Positions 18,461-57,797 of a stretch of 64,000 nt of DNA are shown piece after piece. Source of the stretch: a virus; the IMG/VR virus record IMGVR_UViG_3300036820_000011, positions 18,853 to 82,852 of that record; one strand, given 5' to 3'. The position numbers and the translations under genes are program-made. The notes beneath the pieces are model-generated. The model was not told the DNA's origin. It searched no databases and was given only the letters and a program-made list of their open reading frames with translations. How positions within the stretch are numbered: position 1 is the stretch's first letter; each line of letters opens with the position of its first letter.

Positions 18461-18973
18461 TCAGATCGTCTCGATCCAGCGGGCTCCGACCTTGAGGGTC
18501 ACCGTGGCGAAGGTCTGCACACGGAACTGGAGGTAGACGGCGCTGGACCCGCCGATGGGCGGATAGTCGGCCAGTGGCCAGATCTTGCCGTACGAACTGT
18601 AGACGTACTGGCTGTCCAGGGTCTTCAGCGTGGTGTTCGTCGTGATCAGTCCGGTGCCGTATCCGGTCGACGCGGTTCCCATGGTGAGGCGGGACGCCAG
18701 GAGGCCGGTGTCGTCCATGACCGGGAACACGGTCGTGGTCGTGTGCGCCGTGGACATGGTGGACGCCGACGCCGTGGTGGCGACCTCGAACAGCGCGCCC
18801 GCCGTCTGGATGGAGTTGAGCGAGCACCACCACTCGACCAGCTGGATCTGGCCGTTGGCGGGCACACCGAGCTGGAGCGTGCAGCCGGTGGCCGTGTTGA
18901 TGGCCTCGCCGCCGTTGATCGCCGTTCCGGTCGACACCCCGGCGTTGTACGTCTGGAACATGGAGCCGGGCAC
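18461..18973 (-). CDS. Beta-rich virion protein, 170 aa
   Basis: Thr/Ser/Gly-rich protein (MPGSMFQTYNAGVSTGTAIN) with no signal peptide or transmembrane segment. It is in the block of virion-surface genes between the major tail protein and the connectors. It looks like a trimeric fibre or decoration protein. No specific family recognised. Confidence 0.75.
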   Translation of the reverse strand: MPGSMFQTYNAGVSTGTAINGGEAINTATGCTLQLGVPANGQIQLVEWWCSLNSIQTAGALFEVATTASASTMSTAHTTTTVFPVMDDTGLLASRLTMGTASTGYGTGLITTNTTLKTLDSQYVYSSYGKIWPLADYPPIGGSSAVYLQFRVQTFATVTLKVGARWIETI

Positions 18974-43513: not shown

Positions 43514-44488
43514 CTACGCCGGGCGTACAGCGAACCAGCCCATCCCCTGGGCGTCGTAGCCGACCGTGCGCACCCGGATGCCGGTCAGCGGGTTCTCCGC
43601 CACCACCACGTCCCCGTGGCCGATGTAGAGCCCGACGTGGCTGCCGCCGTAGTAGACGATGATGTCTCCGGGCCGCACCTCGCTGTCCGGCACCCGGCGC
43701 AGCCCGGACGCCTGGGCCTCGCTGGTGCGGGGCACGCTCACCCCGGCGTGCTTCCACGCCTCCATGGTCAGTCCCGAGCAGTCGAACACGTTCGGTCCCG
43801 TACCGCCGAAGACGTACGGCTTGCCGACCTGGTCCAGCGCGAAGGCCACGGCCCGCGACGCTGCGGATGCCGTGGCCTGGTGGACGACTGCCTTGTGCAC
43901 TGCCCTGCGTACCGCTGGCCTGGTCACGGCCTTCACAGCGGGCTTCACCGCCAGCGGCTTCTGGACCGGGTGGACGACCGCCGTCGCCACCCGCTTGACC
44001 GCCGTCCTGGCCTTCGGCTTCACCACGGCCTTCGGCTTCGGCTTCGGCTTGGCCGCAGGCTTCGGTGTGATCGCGAACTGCGGCACCGGACCGCCCTCGG
44101 TGAGCCCGGCACGCGGTCCGCAGACCGGCCACGCTCCCGGTCCCTGGGCGGCGGCACGGCCCGGCCAGCCGTTGAGCACCCGCTGCCCGATGATGATCTG
44201 ATCGTCCTTCGTGGCCCGGTTCGCCGTTTCAGCGAACACCCCGCCGCCGTAGGCAAGCCAGGTAGACCCGCTGAACTGCAGTCCGCCGAAGAACCCGTTG
44301 CCGGTATTGATCGACCAGTTCCCGGACGACTCGCACGCCGCGACACGGTCCCAGACGGATACCGTTGCGGCCTCCGATACCGGTACACTCACCAGCGTCG
44401 ATCCGGTGCCGATCACCCCGGTCATCGCCGCTGCAACCATCCCTCGACGCAGTCGCGTCGTCTCCTTCGGCCGCCTGTGCATGCCCAT
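43514..44488 (-). CDS. Rpf-like transglycosylase fused to NlpC/P60 peptidase
   Basis: 324 residues. N-terminal signal-type segment (residues about 14-40), then a resuscitation-promoting-factor domain (VWDRVAACESSGNWSINTG, GGLQFSGSTWLAYGG, likely catalytic Glu in ACES), a Lys/Pro/Ala/Val-rich linker, and an NlpC/P60 domain with FDCSGLTMEAW and HVGLYIGHGD. It should cut both glycan and peptide bonds of peptidoglycan outside the cell. Confidence 0.85.
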   Translation of the reverse strand: MGMHRRPKETTRLRRGMVAAAMTGVIGTGSTLVSVPVSEAATVSVWDRVAACESSGNWSINTGNGFFGGLQFSGSTWLAYGGGVFAETANRATKDDQIIIGQRVLNGWPGRAAAQGPGAWPVCGPRAGLTEGGPVPQFAITPKPAAKPKPKPKAVVKPKARTAVKRVATAVVHPVQKPLAVKPAVKAVTRPAVRRAVHKAVVHQATASAASRAVAFALDQVGKPYVFGGTGPNVFDCSGLTMEAWKHAGVSVPRTSEAQASGLRRVPDSEVRPGDIIVYYGGSHVGLYIGHGDVVVAENPLTGIRVRTVGYDAQGMGWFAVRPA

Positions 44489-44615
44489 GTTGTGCCCTCT
44501 AGATTCCTGTCGCCCCACGACGGATGTCCTGACCGGGACACAATAACGGAGCACAGGCGGCTGTCCAGCAGGCCCGGCCCTGGCGAATTCAGCAACCAAC
44601 GGGGATGACAGATCG

Positions 44616-45308
44616 TCAGATCTCGTACCGGCCATCCTTGTTGCGCAGGTTCGACCGACGCCAGGCGTCGTCCCGGAACGGCTCGGAGACGGTCTCACCC
44701 CGGTACTCGACCCGCACTCCCGCACCCGCCCTGCCATAGGTGCCGGGAGCGTCCCAGGGCGGTGCCACACCGTCCCGGACAGCGGGGACGACCGCCTCCC
44801 CCTCGACCAGCTTCGCCAGTGCAGCGGCCTGCCGGACGACGAAGTGGCCCGGCTCGGTCCCTGCGAGGGCCTTGAAGGCGAGCCAGAGTCTGGCGGCGGT
44901 GTCACCGATGTAGACCGGTATGTAGCCGGTATGGTCGCCCCAGGCCCGTGCCTGTGCCACAGCGTCGAACGACCGGCCGTCGAAGTCGTCCCGCAGGGAC
45001 ACCCAGCGGACCCCGAGCCGGACCGCCTCGGCCGCCGGGTCGACTCCCCAGGACTGCCAGGTCTGCGCCCGGATGTTGTCCACCACCACGTCGTACCGGC
45101 CCGGTTCCAGGTCTGCAACATCCCGGGCATGCCGGAAGGTCACCGACTTGTCCCAGTTGAGCCAGTCCCACAGGAGGCTGCCGTCGGCGAGTTCCTGCAC
45201 CGGGTCGGGCCGACCGCTGACCCATTTGTCGACCGTGTGGCCCTGCTCCGCCAGGATCATCCCACAGTAGGCGGGAGCCAGGTACACACCGAGTTCCAGG
45301 ATATTCAC
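44616..45308 (-). CDS. CaiB/BaiF-like CoA-transferase, short form
   Basis: 230 residues against about 400 for family III CoA-transferases. N-terminal match ILELGVYLAPAYCGMILAEQ, LNWDKSVTF, and YDVVVDNIRAQTWQSWGVDP. SFDAVAQARAWGD near residue 113 resembles the motif holding the catalytic Asp. Later parts are reduced. Members move CoA between acyl groups. The start overlaps the ABC-GNAT stop, so the two are coupled; in this context it may supply an acyl donor. Confidence 0.72.
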   Translation of the reverse strand: MNILELGVYLAPAYCGMILAEQGHTVDKWVSGRPDPVQELADGSLLWDWLNWDKSVTFRHARDVADLEPGRYDVVVDNIRAQTWQSWGVDPAAEAVRLGVRWVSLRDDFDGRSFDAVAQARAWGDHTGYIPVYIGDTAARLWLAFKALAGTEPGHFVVRQAAALAKLVEGEAVVPAVRDGVAPPWDAPGTYGRAGAGVRVEYRGETVSEPFRDDAWRRSNLRNKDGRYEI

Positions 45309-46387
45309 GCTTCCGCCTTGGGTGCGATGTACTCGAACGACCTGGTCCCCAGCCGCCGGGCGGCCGTCTGGGGCCGGTTCATGGGGGTCCTAAGTCGGTC
45401 GGACCCAGGCGTGGTGTCCCGCCACCTGGGCGACGCCTGGTAGTAGTGGATCAGCGCAGGATGGGACGTGACCGCCCGGAACCGGTATTCCTGATCCCAG
45501 AGGTACTGGCCCAGCCAGTCATTCATCCGGCCGCCGATGCCCAGGCCCTGGTAATCGGGCAGCACGACCAGCCGGTGATTCATCTTGATGTTGCGGGTGT
45601 GAGCATGCGGGAAGTGCCGGTAGGAGTCGAAGGCCACCAGATCGTCTCCGATGAACCCGCCGAAGCAGACCGCCGCCGTGGCCAGATCACCGCTCAAATA
45701 ATGATGATCTTTAAAGAGGGGCCAGACGGAACGATCGACCTGGTGGACGCGGAGGTCCAGTGCTGGCCGGGCTGGAACCGACCCCCAGGTGAGCGTATCC
45801 GTGGCGACCTCGTAGACCCAGTCCGGCTGCAGCCACTCGGCGATGTCGTAGTGGCAGGTCACAGCGACAAACCGGCGTCCACTGCGCCGTACGGACTTCT
45901 GGACGGTGTGCGAGGCGACCTTGGCGACCTGGCGGTCCACGACCGAGGTGAACTCGTCCACCACGGTCAGGCCCGGCGACTCGGCCAGGGAGCGGGCGAT
46001 GTCCGCCCGAAACTGCTCGCCGTTGGACAGGGTCCGGTACGGGCGGAGCCACACCGGCACCGAGCCGAGACCGACCGCCCCGAGCAGGCCCGTGATTTCC
46101 TTGATGCCCATCCCGGCCGGGAAGTCGTCCACCAGGGAGCGATCGGGGGACCAGCGGTGACCGTGGCTGTAGGCGTCCGGCCACAGGGCCCTAGCGACGG
46201 ACGACTTGCCGGAGCCGGACGGGCCGACCACCATGCCGACCGACCAGTCCTTCTCCTCGACCGGGAGGTGGACGTCCCAGGAGTTGGACGCCTTCTCCTC
46301 GACGGAGACATCCATCAGGGAGCTGATCTGCGCCAGCCGCGAGGTCGCCTGGACCGGTGTGCTGACCTCGACCCTCAGCTCAGGCAC
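45305..46387 (-). CDS. ABC-ATPase fused to GNAT/Mom-like acyltransferase (COG2401-like)
   Basis: 360 residues. N-terminal ABC ATPase: Walker A GPSGSGKS (residues 55-62), signature-like LSNGEQFRADIARSLA, Walker B LTVVDEFTS, switch-like AVTCHYD. C-terminal half is GNAT-like with FKDHHYLSGDL, VVLPDYQGLGIGGRM (near 275-290) and FRAVTSHP. This fusion is COG2401. GNAT-fold Mom of phage Mu modifies adenine, which suggests DNA modification, but that is inference. Codons at FKDHHYL are AT-rich. Confidence 0.78.
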   Translation of the reverse strand: MPELRVEVSTPVQATSRLAQISSLMDVSVEEKASNSWDVHLPVEEKDWSVGMVVGPSGSGKSSVARALWPDAYSHGHRWSPDRSLVDDFPAGMGIKEITGLLGAVGLGSVPVWLRPYRTLSNGEQFRADIARSLAESPGLTVVDEFTSVVDRQVAKVASHTVQKSVRRSGRRFVAVTCHYDIAEWLQPDWVYEVATDTLTWGSVPARPALDLRVHQVDRSVWPLFKDHHYLSGDLATAAVCFGGFIGDDLVAFDSYRHFPHAHTRNIKMNHRLVVLPDYQGLGIGGRMNDWLGQYLWDQEYRFRAVTSHPALIHYYQASPRWRDTTPGSDRLRTPMNRPQTAARRLGTRSFEYIAPKAEA

Positions 46388-46396
46388 GGGGGCACC

Positions 46397-46966
46397 TCAC
46401 GTGATCAGCGCCTTGACGTCCAGGCCCTCGGCCGTGAACCGCTCCAGCAGGGACGTCTGCTCGGCCTCGTCCGCGCAGTGGACCACCAGGGCCCATGCCT
46501 CCTGGATGGCCTCGGTGTCGGCGTCCCCCGCCTCCGGCATGACCTCGTCATGGCCGAGCAGCTTTACCAGGTCGGCGTCGGTGTAGCCGGTGCCGTACAG
46601 GAGTGCGCCCTCGGACCCGGCGTCGTTCTCCGCCGCCTCGGTGAGCAGGGCGACCAGGGCCTGTTCGTCGTACTCGCCCAGGTCTGCGGTGCGGTTCGCG
46701 GCCAGCAGGATCTTCACCGCCCTGGCGTCGTCCACGTCCACATACACCACGTCGATGGTGTCCCACTCCAGGTTCCGCGCCGCCCGCAGGGTGTGGTTCC
46801 CGGACAGGACGTGGCCCGTGCTGCGCTGGACCACGATCGGGGCGAACAGGCCGTTCGCCCGCAGCGACTCCTGGATGGCCCGCACGTCACCCCGCCGGGC
46901 GTTCCTCGGATGGAGGGTCACCGAGCCGATCGGCACCCGTTCCACCTTGTTGACCAAAGATCCCAT
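46397..46966 (-). CDS. ParB/Srx-like nuclease-fold protein
   Basis: 189 residues. ParB N-domain signature: VPIGSVTLHPRNARRGD, IQESLRANGLFAPIVVQ, and the GNHTLRAAR box near residue 62. No DNA-binding HTH of segregation ParB follows; the tail is acidic. Such stand-alone ParB-like proteins act as nucleases or in DNA-modification operons. It is 9 bases upstream of the ABC-GNAT gene. The parS-like site at 1073 lies 45 kb away and a link is unproven. Confidence 0.78.
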   Translation of the reverse strand: MGSLVNKVERVPIGSVTLHPRNARRGDVRAIQESLRANGLFAPIVVQRSTGHVLSGNHTLRAARNLEWDTIDVVYVDVDDARAVKILLAANRTADLGEYDEQALVALLTEAAENDAGSEGALLYGTGYTDADLVKLLGHDEVMPEAGDADTEAIQEAWALVVHCADEAEQTSLLERFTAEGLDVKALIT

Positions 46967-49309: not shown

Positions 49310-49585
49310 TCACAGCCCGCGCCTCCGTTCCGTGACTGTGACCGCCAGGTCGCCCGCCGCGCTGCGCCTGCTCCGCCAGGTGGCCACGGCCCGGCTGAAG
49401 CGGTCCTCCCGCCTCAGGTGGCTGCGCCGCCCATACTTCGCGAGGATCTTGCACTCCTGCCCGGCGGCGGCACCGCACTCCCAGCAGGGCACCGCGACCG
49501 CGTCGGCAGGCTTCGGGTGCTTGCGCTCCCAGTCGTCCCGGGCCCGCCGACCGATCTCCGCCGGGCTGTCCGTGCTGCTGTCCAT
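49310..49585 (-). CDS. Zinc-binding-type small protein, 91 aa
   Basis: ATG 49585. VPCWECGAAAGQECK (Cys-x2-Cys, later Cys) followed by RRSHLRREDRFSRAV. This CxxCGA..G..C...H-R pattern is common in short phage proteins and resembles a zinc knuckle. Role unknown. The inverted repeat at 49630-49715 lies just upstream. Confidence 0.7.
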   Translation of the reverse strand: MDSSTDSPAEIGRRARDDWERKHPKPADAVAVPCWECGAAAGQECKILAKYGRRSHLRREDRFSRAVATWRSRRSAAGDLAVTVTERRRGL

Positions 49586-49629
49586 CGATCTTCCTTTCCG
49601 TGGTCTTTGATCTTCCTTAACGATCGTTC

Positions 49630-49715
49630 AGTGTATAGTTGTGTAGGGTTCTCCGCTGACCCACACGCACGCACTAATTGCTGGTTCAGCGGAGAACCCT
49701 ACACAACTATACACT
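49630..49715. repeat. Perfect 30-bp inverted repeat with 26-bp spacer
   Basis: Arms 49630-49659 and 49686-49715 are perfect complements. They contain GTGTATAGTTGTGTAGGG, and the spacer is GC/CA rich. Adjacent to the left arm is the palindrome AACGATCGTT (49619-49628). It lies between the primase-helicase stop and the next leftward gene. The arms are AT-richer than flanks. It could be a terminator, replication or recombination site. No T-run downstream in the direction of transcription. Confidence 0.85.
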
Positions 49716-49723
49716 TTTGCAGG

Positions 49724-52054
49724 TCACAGCGTTTCGCCCTCTTCGGGATCTTGCAGTGAAAGTCCCATGTAACGGTTCCCCGACGACCCCCGGCGGCGTT
49801 CGTGCCCCTTGGTGACCATCGCCTCCCCGAAGGTGGTCGAATTGCCCGCATATTCGTTGTTCGCCGAGCACCACACCGCCCACGCCTGGAACAGCTCCGA
49901 CGCCTTCACCGACTGCCGGGGGACGGAGACCGTGCACTCGCCCAGGAACCGCCCCAGGGCGTCCGTGTCGGCCCGGTAGGCGGCCGTGCGCTCCGCCACC
50001 GCCCCCGGGGCCCGCAGACCCATCCTCCGGAACTCCTGGAGCCCTTCCAGGGCCCAGGCCAGGACCGCCCCGCCGTCCCGGCACAGCCGCTGCGGGAGGT
50101 CGTGGTCCTGCTCGTCCTCGGTGAAGACCCGTTCGAAGGGCACCACCCGGAGCCGCCGCCAGCAGGCCGGGTCGTCGCTCACGCGCGGCAGCTTGTTCGT
50201 GATCATGACGAGGGTGTGGGTGGGGGCGAACTCGACCGGGTCCATCCGCATCCGCCGGGCCCGGATGTCCTCACCGCCGGTCAGCCGCTTCATCGTGGAC
50301 TCATCGAACCGCCGACCTGCCTCGGTCTCCGAGATGAAGACCATGCGCGCGCCCATCAGGTCCATCCGCTCGGTGCTGTGGCCCTCGTGCTTGCTGGCGA
50401 TCAGCATCTCCGGGTCGACCTCGATCGAGTAGTCGCCGAACGCGGCCTTGACCGCGTCCCGCAAGGTGCTCTTGCCGTTCGCGCCCTCGCCGGTGAAGAT
50501 CGGCATCACGTGCTCGGTGACCCGCCCCAGCATCGCGTAGCCGACCAGGCGCTGGACGAACCGGCGGACGGCGTCGTCGGGCAGCACCTCCGCCACGAAG
50601 GCCCGGAACTCGGTGCCGTCCCCGCCCGGCGTGAACGGTGCCAGCTTCGTAATGAGGTCGTCGGGGTCCGGTGGCCGGATCTCGCCTGTGGTCAGGTCCA
50701 GCGTGCCGCCCGCCGTGTTGAACAGGTCCCCGTCGGCGTCGAGGCGCTCGGCAGCCACGGAGAACACCTCCAGCGAGGAAGCGATCTTCAGGATGCCCTC
50801 GATCCCGCCCGCCGACTCGCACTTGCGGACGTCCTGGTACAGGGCGTCCCGGGCGCGGGTCTCCAGCTCCTCCAGTCCCCGCAGGGAGGTCTTGAGGACG
50901 TCGACCACGGCCCGCACCGCGAACCGGTCCTTGTCCTCGGTCCACCGCTGGCCGTCCCACACGTGCCAGCCGACCCCGTGGGCGTGCAGCAGCCTCCCGG
51001 TGTACTGCACCGCCAGGCGCTCCGCCATCCTCAGCTGGCCCCGGTGCATCTCGTTGACGGCGTCGGGGTCCTCGTCCGCGACGGGCGGCTCGTACGGTGC
51101 GGCGGTCCCCTCGTCCAGGGAGCGCCGGATCGTCCAGGCGATCCGGGGGTCGTCGGTGCCGCGCTCCCGCACGGCCGCCAGCAGCTGCTCCTCGGCGGAC
51201 TCCCGGGAGATCCAGCCGCGCGGGATGTACTGGCCGATCATGTAGGCCATGCGGTTGGTGGTCGCGTTGCCGGTCCCCGGTGCGGCGTCGCGCACGGCCG
51301 CGACCTTCTCGGCGACCGACGCGGCGAGCCATCCCGGGACCGCGCGCCGGACTGCGGGAGCAGGTGGTGGCTGGCCGGGCTCCGGCGGCCCGGCGATGTC
51401 CTCGATGATCCCGAACTCCCGCAGCAGGCCGGTCAGCCAGCCGGGGGGCACGGCCACGGCCGCGTCCCGGACGGTCCGGTAGGCCCCCTTGCCGGAGACC
51501 GAGGGCGGGGCCACCACCTGGCCGCCGTCGCCCTTGACGTCGATGTCCGGGTAGCGGTCGCCGAACACCCGGCTGTCGCTCTTGACCGTCGTCCCGGGCG
51601 GCATCCGGAAGTAGTACTGGGTGCCGCCGCCGCCGGTCCGGACCGTGTGGGTGTCCGGCAGGTCCCCGTACTCGGTGGTCAGCGCGACCAGCGAGTCCAG
51701 GCCCTGCTTGTAGGTGCCGTCCGGGCGCAGGCCCTCGTCCACGTCCAGAACCCAGAACCCGGAGGCGGCTCCGGTGGCGATCCCGATGTTGGCGCTCCGG
51801 TGCTCTGCCCAGACGGCGGCGATCGTCTGCGGGTCGCCGGTGGCCTGCCGGGTCCAGTCGCCCAGCATCGGGTGCTTGCCCGCCGACGCGCACGCGGCCG
51901 TCCAGCTCACCCCCAGGCAGCTGCACTGTCCACGGTCGGTGATCCAGTGGACCGGCAGTACCTTCCAGCCGCGCTCCCCGTAGCCCAGTGCCGCGTACGC
52001 GCGCGGGAACTCCCGGGCGAACGCCTCCTCGTCGGTGTCGACGTCTGTGGTCAC
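49724..52054 (-). CDS. Primase-polymerase / SF3 helicase
   Basis: 776 residues from GTG 52054. N-terminal bifunctional primase-polymerase: SCLGVSWTAACASAGKHPM, GFWVLDVDEG with metal-binding Asp, TGGGGTQYYF, DVKGDGGQVVAPPS. C-terminal D5-type SF3 helicase: Walker A GEGANGKST near 520, Walker B MVFISETEAG, motif C MITNKLP. It starts and unwinds DNA during phage replication. A leader element with AAGGAGGGGG precedes it. Confidence 0.9.
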   Translation of the reverse strand: MTTDVDTDEEAFAREFPRAYAALGYGERGWKVLPVHWITDRGQCSCLGVSWTAACASAGKHPMLGDWTRQATGDPQTIAAVWAEHRSANIGIATGAASGFWVLDVDEGLRPDGTYKQGLDSLVALTTEYGDLPDTHTVRTGGGGTQYYFRMPPGTTVKSDSRVFGDRYPDIDVKGDGGQVVAPPSVSGKGAYRTVRDAAVAVPPGWLTGLLREFGIIEDIAGPPEPGQPPPAPAVRRAVPGWLAASVAEKVAAVRDAAPGTGNATTNRMAYMIGQYIPRGWISRESAEEQLLAAVRERGTDDPRIAWTIRRSLDEGTAAPYEPPVADEDPDAVNEMHRGQLRMAERLAVQYTGRLLHAHGVGWHVWDGQRWTEDKDRFAVRAVVDVLKTSLRGLEELETRARDALYQDVRKCESAGGIEGILKIASSLEVFSVAAERLDADGDLFNTAGGTLDLTTGEIRPPDPDDLITKLAPFTPGGDGTEFRAFVAEVLPDDAVRRFVQRLVGYAMLGRVTEHVMPIFTGEGANGKSTLRDAVKAAFGDYSIEVDPEMLIASKHEGHSTERMDLMGARMVFISETEAGRRFDESTMKRLTGGEDIRARRMRMDPVEFAPTHTLVMITNKLPRVSDDPACWRRLRVVPFERVFTEDEQDHDLPQRLCRDGGAVLAWALEGLQEFRRMGLRAPGAVAERTAAYRADTDALGRFLGECTVSVPRQSVKASELFQAWAVWCSANNEYAGNSTTFGEAMVTKGHERRRGSSGNRYMGLSLQDPEEGETL

Positions 52055-55952: not shown

Positions 55953-57797
55953 ATGAGCCTGGACGAGGTCACCGCACTCCACCTGGTGGAGAACACCGAG
56001 GACGCCATGGCGTGCCTGCGCTGGCTGTCCACCAGGGATCGGATCGGGTTCGACACCGAGGGCACCGGCCTGAAACCGGAGACCGACCGGGTCCGCCTGG
56101 TGCAGATCGGGGACCGGCACGAGGGCTGGGCCATCCCGTACGAGATCAATCAGATGCTGGTCCAGGACATCGTCAAGCGGTTCGAGGGACAGTACGTGAT
56201 GTTCAACGCCCCCTACGACGTGGCCATGACGCGGTCATCCGGCATTCAGCTGCCGGTTGAGCGGATCGAAGACACCCGGCTCAAGGCCCACGTCCTGTCC
56301 TCGACCGGGCCACTGGCGCTGAAGCCCCTGGCGGCCCAGCACGTCGACCCGGGTGCTGCCGGGCTCCAGGACGACCTGAAGTCCGTGTTCGCGCAGCACG
56401 GCTGGAACTGGGCCACCATCCCGTGGAACTTCCGGCAGTACTGGCAGTACGGTGCGCTGGACCCGGTTCTCACCATGCAGCTGGACGACGCCCTGGACCC
56501 GGTCGTCCGTCGGGTCTCGCCCAAGTCCTACGACCTGGAGATGGCCGCCGCCTGGTCCTGCGAGAAGATGATGCGCAACGGCGCGGCCGTCGACCGGCCG
56601 TACGTCACCGGCTTCCTGGCCGACCTGGAGGGCCAGGTCGCCGAGCTGCTGGCCGCCTGCCGGTCCGCCTACGGGATCAATCCCGGCTCCTCCGACCAGG
56701 TGGCCGACGCACTGGTCCGGGACGGTGTCCAGATGCGGCACCTCACCTCCGGCGGCAGGTTCAAGACCGACAAGAACGTCCTGGGCGCGATCGACCACCC
56801 GCTCGCCAGACTGGTACTGGAGTACCGCACCACGACCCGGCTGGCCAACACCTACCTGGCGTCCTACCTGCCGCTGTCCGAGCGGGACGGCCGCATCCAC
56901 CCGTCGATCAACACGGTCGGCGGCATCGCCAAGAACCCGTTCGAGAACGGCGGCGAGGCCGGGGTGCGCACGGGCCGGATGTCCGCCAGCGATCCCAACG
57001 TCCAGAACGTGCCGATGCGCACCGAGCAGGGCAAGCTGATCCGCCGGTCCTTCACCGCCCGGTGCTCGGATCGCTGCGGCTGCGGCGGCCCGCACACCTG
57101 GGTCAAGTGCGACTTCGACCAGATCGAGCAGCGGGTGATGGCCCACATGTCCGGTGACCGGGGTATGCGCGAGGCGTTCCTGGGCCCCGACGACTTCTTC
57201 GTGGCACTCGGCCGTCGGCTGTACAACGACCCGACCATGCAGAAGTCAGATCCGCGCCGGACCCCGGTCAAGAACGCGGCCTACGGGAAAATCTACGGAG
57301 CTGGACCTGACAAGTTCGCCCTGATGACCGGCATGCTGCTGGACAGCGGCGAGCCCGACGTAGCTCAGGCTCAGGCGTTCCTGAAGTCCATGGATGACAT
57401 GTACCCGGGCCCGCAGCGGTTCACCAAGGCCGTGATCAGGCAGGGCAACAAGCGGTTCCGGGAGGAGGGCGCGGCCTACGTCCGCTCCCCGCTGACCGGC
57501 CGCCGGGTGGTCGCCGAGCGGGGCCGCTTCTACGCCCTGGTGAACTACATCATCCAGATGATGGCCGGGGAGATCCTCAAGATGAAGATCGTGGAAGCCG
57601 ATGCCGCCGGGCTCGGCCAGTACATGGTCATGCCGGTGCACGACGAGATCGACCTGGACGTGCCGACAGCCGACCTGCCCGAGGTCGTGGCCACCCTGCA
57701 CGAGGTGTTCAACGACAGCGACCTGCTGACCGTCCCGGTCACCGCGTCGGTCGAGACAGGCCCCAACTGGGGCGAAGTGAAGGAGTGGCAGGAATGA
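55953..57797 (+). CDS. polA: Family A DNA polymerase
   Basis: 614 residues. 3'-5' exonuclease start GFDTEGTGL with metal-binding Asp-Glu (near 32-40). Polymerase motif A KCDFDQIEQR near 387, motif B RTPVKNAAYGKIYG near 435, motif C PVHDEIDLD near 563. No 5'-3' exonuclease domain. It is the replicative DNA polymerase of the phage. The codons at motif B are AT-richer than surroundings. Downstream neighbours overlap or adjoin. Confidence 0.92.
   Translation: MSLDEVTALHLVENTEDAMACLRWLSTRDRIGFDTEGTGLKPETDRVRLVQIGDRHEGWAIPYEINQMLVQDIVKRFEGQYVMFNAPYDVAMTRSSGIQLPVERIEDTRLKAHVLSSTGPLALKPLAAQHVDPGAAGLQDDLKSVFAQHGWNWATIPWNFRQYWQYGALDPVLTMQLDDALDPVVRRVSPKSYDLEMAAAWSCEKMMRNGAAVDRPYVTGFLADLEGQVAELLAACRSAYGINPGSSDQVADALVRDGVQMRHLTSGGRFKTDKNVLGAIDHPLARLVLEYRTTTRLANTYLASYLPLSERDGRIHPSINTVGGIAKNPFENGGEAGVRTGRMSASDPNVQNVPMRTEQGKLIRRSFTARCSDRCGCGGPHTWVKCDFDQIEQRVMAHMSGDRGMREAFLGPDDFFVALGRRLYNDPTMQKSDPRRTPVKNAAYGKIYGAGPDKFALMTGMLLDSGEPDVAQAQAFLKSMDDMYPGPQRFTKAVIRQGNKRFREEGAAYVRSPLTGRRVVAERGRFYALVNYIIQMMAGEILKMKIVEADAAGLGQYMVMPVHDEIDLDVPTADLPEVVATLHEVFNDSDLLTVPVTASVETGPNWGEVKEWQE

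Follow-up and report, generated by a model that had tools for sequence, protein, structure and literature searches.

We analysed a window of 64,000 nucleotides (positions 18,853 to 82,852) of the IMG/VR virus record IMGVR_UViG_3300036820_000011, which is 82.9 kb long and possibly incomplete. The part described here carries a primase-helicase gene, a perfect inverted repeat just beyond its 3′ end and a small gene that follows in the same direction. The features of the locus are as follows.

49310 to 49585, minus strand: zinc-finger-like small gene, next in the same direction, given for context only (weakly matches a family of zinc-finger DNA-binding proteins of phages)
49630 to 49715, no strand: whole element, a perfect 30-bp inverted repeat with a 26-bp loop, proposed replication origin (sequence and fold)
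49631 to 49640, plus strand: iteron 1, GTGTATAGTT (sequence)
49641 to 49650, plus strand: iteron 2, GTGTAGGGTT, in tandem with iteron 1 (sequence; unrelated viral contigs contain the same 20-mer)
49651 to 49659, plus strand: arm extension past the iterons, CTCCGCTGA, perfectly complementary to 49686-49694 (sequence)
49651 to 49694, no strand: 44-bp spacer of about 0.60 GC that separates the facing iteron pairs, where unwinding is proposed (scored as 49651-49695)
49662 to 49674, no strand: loop tract of 13 nt with alternating pyrimidines and purines, CACACGCACGCAC (tract statistics)
49695 to 49704, minus strand: iteron 3, GTGTAGGGTT (sequence)
49705 to 49714, minus strand: iteron 4, GTGTATAGTT (sequence)
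49724 to 52054, minus strand: primase-helicase gene, proposed initiator (Prim-Pol, D5_N and SF3 helicase profiles; C-terminal winged-helix model)
49727 to 50107, minus strand: C-terminal 127 aa of the primase, proposed iteron-binding domain (predicted RFX/P4-alpha-type winged helix)

The inverted repeat is far beyond chance expectation. Its perfect 30-bp arms (49630-49659 and 49686-49715) and 26-bp loop were confirmed as initially annotated, and when one mismatch is allowed the arms extend to 34 nt and the loop shortens to 18 nt. No other close inverted repeat in the window comes near this length, the runner-up perfect repeat measuring 14 bp, and in 20 simulated windows of the same dinucleotide make-up (Markov-1 runs) the longest close inverted repeat was at most 14 bp. 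The arms are indeed AT-rich for this genome (GC content of 47 % against 68 % for the window). A 10-bp palindrome pointed out beside the repeat (AACGATCGTT, 49619-49628) does exist, but it carries no significance, as 0.73 such palindromes are expected and one was found with one mismatch allowed. The repeat does lie just past the primase-helicase gene, 9 bp beyond its 3′ end. Its description as lying between replication genes is only half right, because the zinc-finger-like neighbour on the other side has no shown role in replication.

The element is predicted to fold into a very stable hairpin, both as RNA (-69 kcal/mol, z -10 against shuffles) and as DNA (30-bp stem and 26-nt loop, z -11). This RNA stability is what would be expected if the hairpin ended the primase mRNA, as a transcription terminator or as an RNA-processing structure, one of the functions considered in the initial annotation. 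However, the transcribed (minus) strand lacks the T-run that should come after the hairpin of an intrinsic terminator, and a terminator scan found nothing at the element. Moreover, relatives retain the repeats as DNA, often without a long unbroken stem and with copies that are extra or unevenly spaced, and in the Sulfolobus plasmid pRN1 the terminator and the origin stem-loop are separate elements (PMC4234260). We regard transcript termination or processing as a very improbable main function.

The initial annotation missed that each arm opens with two tandem 10-mers, GTGTATAGTT GTGTAGGGTT, so that the element consists of two iteron pairs in facing orientation, 44 bp apart. The useful unit is the 10-bp iteron GTGTAKRGTT and not the hairpin. 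In the whole 82.9-kb record the pattern GTGTANRGTT has exactly four matches, all within the inverted repeat, and the CTCCGCTGA bases carry the symmetry of the arms past the iterons. Short direct repeats in two sets, placed directly downstream of an initiator gene, are what an iteron origin should display, and both are found here, with two tandem 10-mers per side in facing orientation.

The neighbouring gene encodes a 776-aa product with an AEP Prim-Pol domain (PF09250), D5_N (PF08706) and an SF3 helicase (PF19263 / TIGR01613), and the TIGR01613 match makes it a member of the P4 primase family. Its last 127 residues align with those of other motif-bearing primases, with near-invariant W18, L72, W79, R106 and G110. 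The structure model of this part is a winged helix with pLDDT of about 96 over residues 51-120, and its closest fold in PDB is the DNA-binding domain of hRFX1 bound to DNA (E 5.7e-4), followed by the tail of ASFV C962R. The latter has been likened to the origin-binding domain of P4 gp-alpha (PMC10516667). The protein thus combines the D5_N/SF3 helicase with a C-terminal DNA-binding domain, a winged helix according to the model, as expected of an initiator of an iteron origin.

We searched for the iterons in other genomes. The exact 20-mer was found in two other viral contigs, and in one of them (L003) it starts right where a D5-type primase gene ends, at the stop codon. Scanning IMG/VR for tandem GTGTAKRGTT resulted in 26 contigs. 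In 20 of them a profile search detected a D5-type primase ORF whose 3′ end is at most 400 bp, and mostly no more than about 110 bp, from the tandem pair. Lactobacillus gasseri phage phiadh (L020) is the 21st IMG/VR contig with iterons at the 3′ end of the primase, which is visible in its full record. In GTDB genomes we recovered 54 tandem-iteron loci, and the 12 that show the arrangement with a D5-type primase include Methanoregula, a beta-proteobacterium, Limobrevibacterium and several Bacillota. In ten bacterial genomes searched in full, the tandem pair was present 1-8 times each and the reversed control 0 times. The pairwise identity of the 24 motif-bearing primases left after removal of near-duplicates has a median of 33 % and falls as low as 21 %. 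A search for the arm sequence in relatives, proposed in the initial annotation, was decisive at the level of the 10-mer, with iterons standing beside distantly related primases. The iteron motif alone is not sufficient, because of the 80 loci from the viral and GTDB scans, 48 (mainly from GTDB genomes) showed no D5 primase within 400 bp in the sequence examined. Most contigs gained with a looser iteron, GTGYANRGTT, had no primase next to it, so the strict iteron appears to be the informative form.

As a survey independent of the motif, we fetched 48 primase loci by protein similarity and compared the 510 bp after the primase with other stretches. At least two exact units were present after the primase in 4 of the 48 loci (two of them already in the motif scan, and two near-duplicates of each other); among 747 other 510-bp stretches taken from these loci, none had as many. 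Related repeats stand after the primase in many of the remaining loci (TGCAGGGTT, GGTGCATAGTT, GGTGGATAGTT, TTGAGGGTT, TCTGGAGGGTT). Repeats in this position are therefore common and GTGTAKRGTT is one recurring version. Mapping the iteron on the primase tree required 13 changes compared to 19.7 in shuffles, on a tree with long branches and unsure deep placements in which many rows were chosen for having the motif. The iteron is clustered on the tree, yet it has been gained or lost many times.

Two other readings of the element are very unlikely. A long perfect inverted repeat could be the remnant of a MITE-like mobile element or a recombination or attachment site, as the initial annotation allowed, and some Clostridia chromosomes do carry similar elements as scattered orphan copies. 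However, the element is single-copy in its genome, its flanks differ and show no target-site duplication, and across phyla the iterons are linked to primase genes, not to integrases or transposases; we give this reading almost no weight. Equally little goes to an operator role, in which binding by the primase-helicase, or by some other protein of the phage, would serve autoregulation or copy control. Iterons of iteron plasmids often serve both replication and control by handcuffing, which would fit such a role, but here the element is downstream of the gene to be regulated and a promoter scan, which covers actinobacterial promoters poorly, found none nearby.

Several known origins have a comparable layout. 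The closest is that of phiadh (AJ131519, 13084-13469), where the depositors' rep_origin lies directly after primase ORF771 and is built of GTGTATAGTT / GTGTAGGGTT iterons. It shares with the window the P4-family primase gene directly 5′, the identical iterons and the facing sets around a spacer. In contrast, this low-GC phage has ten iterons and a very AT-rich spacer, whereas in the window the iterons number four, the 44-bp spacer is GC-rich and the hairpin is perfect. The annotated origin of Streptococcus phage Sfi21 (AF115103, 34487-34784) is a 302-bp non-coding stretch right after the primase gene, also with facing repeats around a core, but its repeat is TAGTTACT-like and its spacer AT-rich. 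In P4, the crr site immediately 3′ of alpha contains type 1 repeats in the order ++ ... --. The window has the same ++/-- repeats just 3′ of its initiator gene, and its primase shares with alpha a winged-helix origin-binding domain (putative, by model, in our case). The differences are the GGTGAACA-type repeat of P4, the Toprim primase in alpha and the separation of crr from ori. The crr site of P4 is needed for replication, which starts elsewhere.

Further parallels come from SaPI rep and SCCmec Cch2, which have iterons directly downstream of a gene for a self-loading helicase, to whose C-terminal domain they bind (PMC7581432). Cch2, a D5-type helicase, was shown experimentally to bind direct repeats downstream of its own gene via its C-terminal domain, and this binding was described by analogy with SaPI Rep (PMC7581432). 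It differs in the iteron (AAGTG), in lacking a fused primase and in that inverted repeats are dispensable for binding. In pRN1, the essential origin is a stem-loop of ~100 bp located 3′ of an AEP-SF3-wHTH gene, and the authors saw no iterons in it (PMC4234260). A large stem-loop likewise follows the AEP-SF3-winged helix replication gene of the window, although its sequence is different. The 21-bp stem arm of pRN1 (L201:5084-5183) resembles two tandem 9-bp near-repeats, TGTCCATAG TGTCCAACT, matching at 7 of 12 positions at offset 9, and pRN2 gives a similar hint at offset 9. That pRN1 may share the design of the window is suggestive only.

Based on these comparisons, we propose that the inverted repeat is a phage replication origin of the iteron type, bound by the neighbouring P4/D5-family primase-helicase, with a probability of roughly 0.87. 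An origin was among the options in the initial annotation, and it is now strongly supported by the facing iteron pairs beside the primase gene, their recurrence elsewhere and the rep_origin annotation in phiadh. The support comes chiefly from the arms being paired iterons and not from their ability to form a cruciform. The anatomy of the element, its recurrence and the primase linkage are read from the sequence itself. Among the points against an origin are that there are only four iterons and that the AT-rich unwinding element is missing. The cumulative GC skew declines across 43-51 kb and levels off afterwards, a course that is confounded with gene orientation and not decisive.

The main live rival is a serious one, namely that the element is a cis-required site like crr, to which the primase-helicase binds while initiation takes place at another, unrecognised origin. 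P4 crr has exactly this ++/-- layout just 3′ of alpha, and the initiating ori is about 4.5 kb away. But P4 has type 1 repeats at ori too, and in our case no further unit is present in the 82.9-kb record (possibly incomplete), and this lack of other iterons weakens the rival. The phiadh and Sfi21 annotations also name the corresponding site itself as the origin. Altogether we consider an auxiliary site improbable.

The spacers of low-GC relatives contain a strongly AT-rich stretch, but no AT-rich region separates the iteron sets in the window, where the lowest 30-bp GC content is 0.53 (p=0.096 within the window). The GC-rich spacer contains instead the alternating tract CACACGCACGCAC, with p=0.003 against window stretches of the same size and p=0.015 in a test on the 200 bp that follow the primase. 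Four other loci with little AT (L010, L012, L018 and L059) have alternating tracts of 15-22 nt (p=0.004-0.009), and in the GC-rich loci found later the 200-bp test gave p=0.020 (L213), p=0.15 (L214), p=0.040 (L237) and p=0.11 (L253). Ten loci combined, with the discovery set included, yield a Fisher p of 6e-6. The alternating tract is thus a hypothesis with partial support, because it was drawn from the data and the discovery set is among the ten loci. It is absent in L014, and in L040 neither an AT-rich stretch nor a tract is clear. We also noticed a 31-nt alternating tract, CGCGCGCGTGTATATATACGCGCGCGTGCGT, after the D5 primase of L253 (700-1100), amid GTGCA-type repeats.

We infer that the C-terminal winged helix of the primase-helicase docks on each iteron and that the facing pairs would load two helicase rings (hexamers) pointing in opposite directions. 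The GC-rich spacer with its alternating pyrimidine-purine tract would then melt, possibly assisted by cruciform extrusion of the 30-bp arms, to which the arm extension may contribute. The N-terminal AEP domain would prime, and the phage family A polymerase (55953-57797) or host enzymes would extend.

An iteron origin 3′ of a P4/D5 primase is a kind already known. The window element is a variant of it, because it has no AT-rich element and its arms are extended to a perfect hairpin. Compared to the described origins, a GC-rich spacer with an alternating tract takes the place of the AT-rich unwinding element, and compared to the described iteron origins the hairpin resembles the stem-loop origin of pRN1. 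We found no published description of GTGTAKRGTT as a cross-phylum motif in the literature covered, which excludes most subscription journals. Within the same coverage the 19-20-mers had no match in published text, and none of the papers containing two of the 10-mers concerned phage replication, judging by title and abstract. One tentative extension, which we would rather bet against, is that P4/D5 primase-helicases read the single iteron GTGTAKRGTT, through their RFX-type winged helix, as a deeply conserved docking code. This code would be shared by phages and prophages from (probably) Actinobacteria, Pseudomonadota and Bacillota and by an archaeal genome. GC-rich members would have a Z-prone alternating tract in place of the AT-rich element, in the window together with a perfect arm able to form a cruciform, and pRN1-type stem-loops would follow the same design. 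If such a code were real, unrelated phages might recognise each other's origins.

Origins are unmapped in most phages. An iteron at the 3′ ends of P4/D5 primases would make them predictable by sequence in many uncultured phages and prophages, and, being recognisable, it tells which repeats to test. It also unites the iteron origins of SaPI and phiadh, P4 crr and the pRN1 stem-loop in one testable layout. The GC-rich members pose the question of how an origin melts without an AT-rich element, and the presence of one iteron with primases of about 21-35 % identity raises the question of whether the recognition is conserved or convergent.

BLASTN of the element against phages gave chance matches only, the 24-kb neighbourhood had no near relative in the phage collection, and viral contigs searched with the primase alone yielded no relative. 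The plasmid collection contained no iteron match, and tRNA and Rfam scans of the window gave no match. The ORF at 43517-45130 (minus strand) contains Transglycosylas (Rpf-like) and NlpC/P60 domains, and this protein together with the GC content of 68 % suggests an actinobacterial host. Three genes stand in a row on the minus strand (44616-46966), encoding a ParB-like protein (46397-46966), an ATPase-GNAT fusion (45305-46387) and a product that looks CoA-transferase-like by eye with no Pfam match (44616-45308). The row may be a DNA-modification cluster.

In Clostridia/Ruminococcus genomes, pairs of GTGTAKRGTT also face each other across an AT-rich spacer at places where no D5 primase is adjacent (L043:1515-1621, L050:1570-1676, L056:4962-5068, L061:173-300, L044:6092-6262 and L082:4720-4905). 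Several of these origin-like elements are located near housekeeping genes (RmuC, NadA, a flippase), and the assembly G007 contains two complete elements and a single one, with no D5 primase found in it. They are possibly decoys against phages, or remnants. In Paludibacteraceae genomes we observed arrays or pairs of GTGTAGAGTT (L035:1248-1277, L064:7467-7516 and L053:3744-3763), which occur at several places per genome, none adjoining primases, and probably represent an unrelated dispersed repeat.
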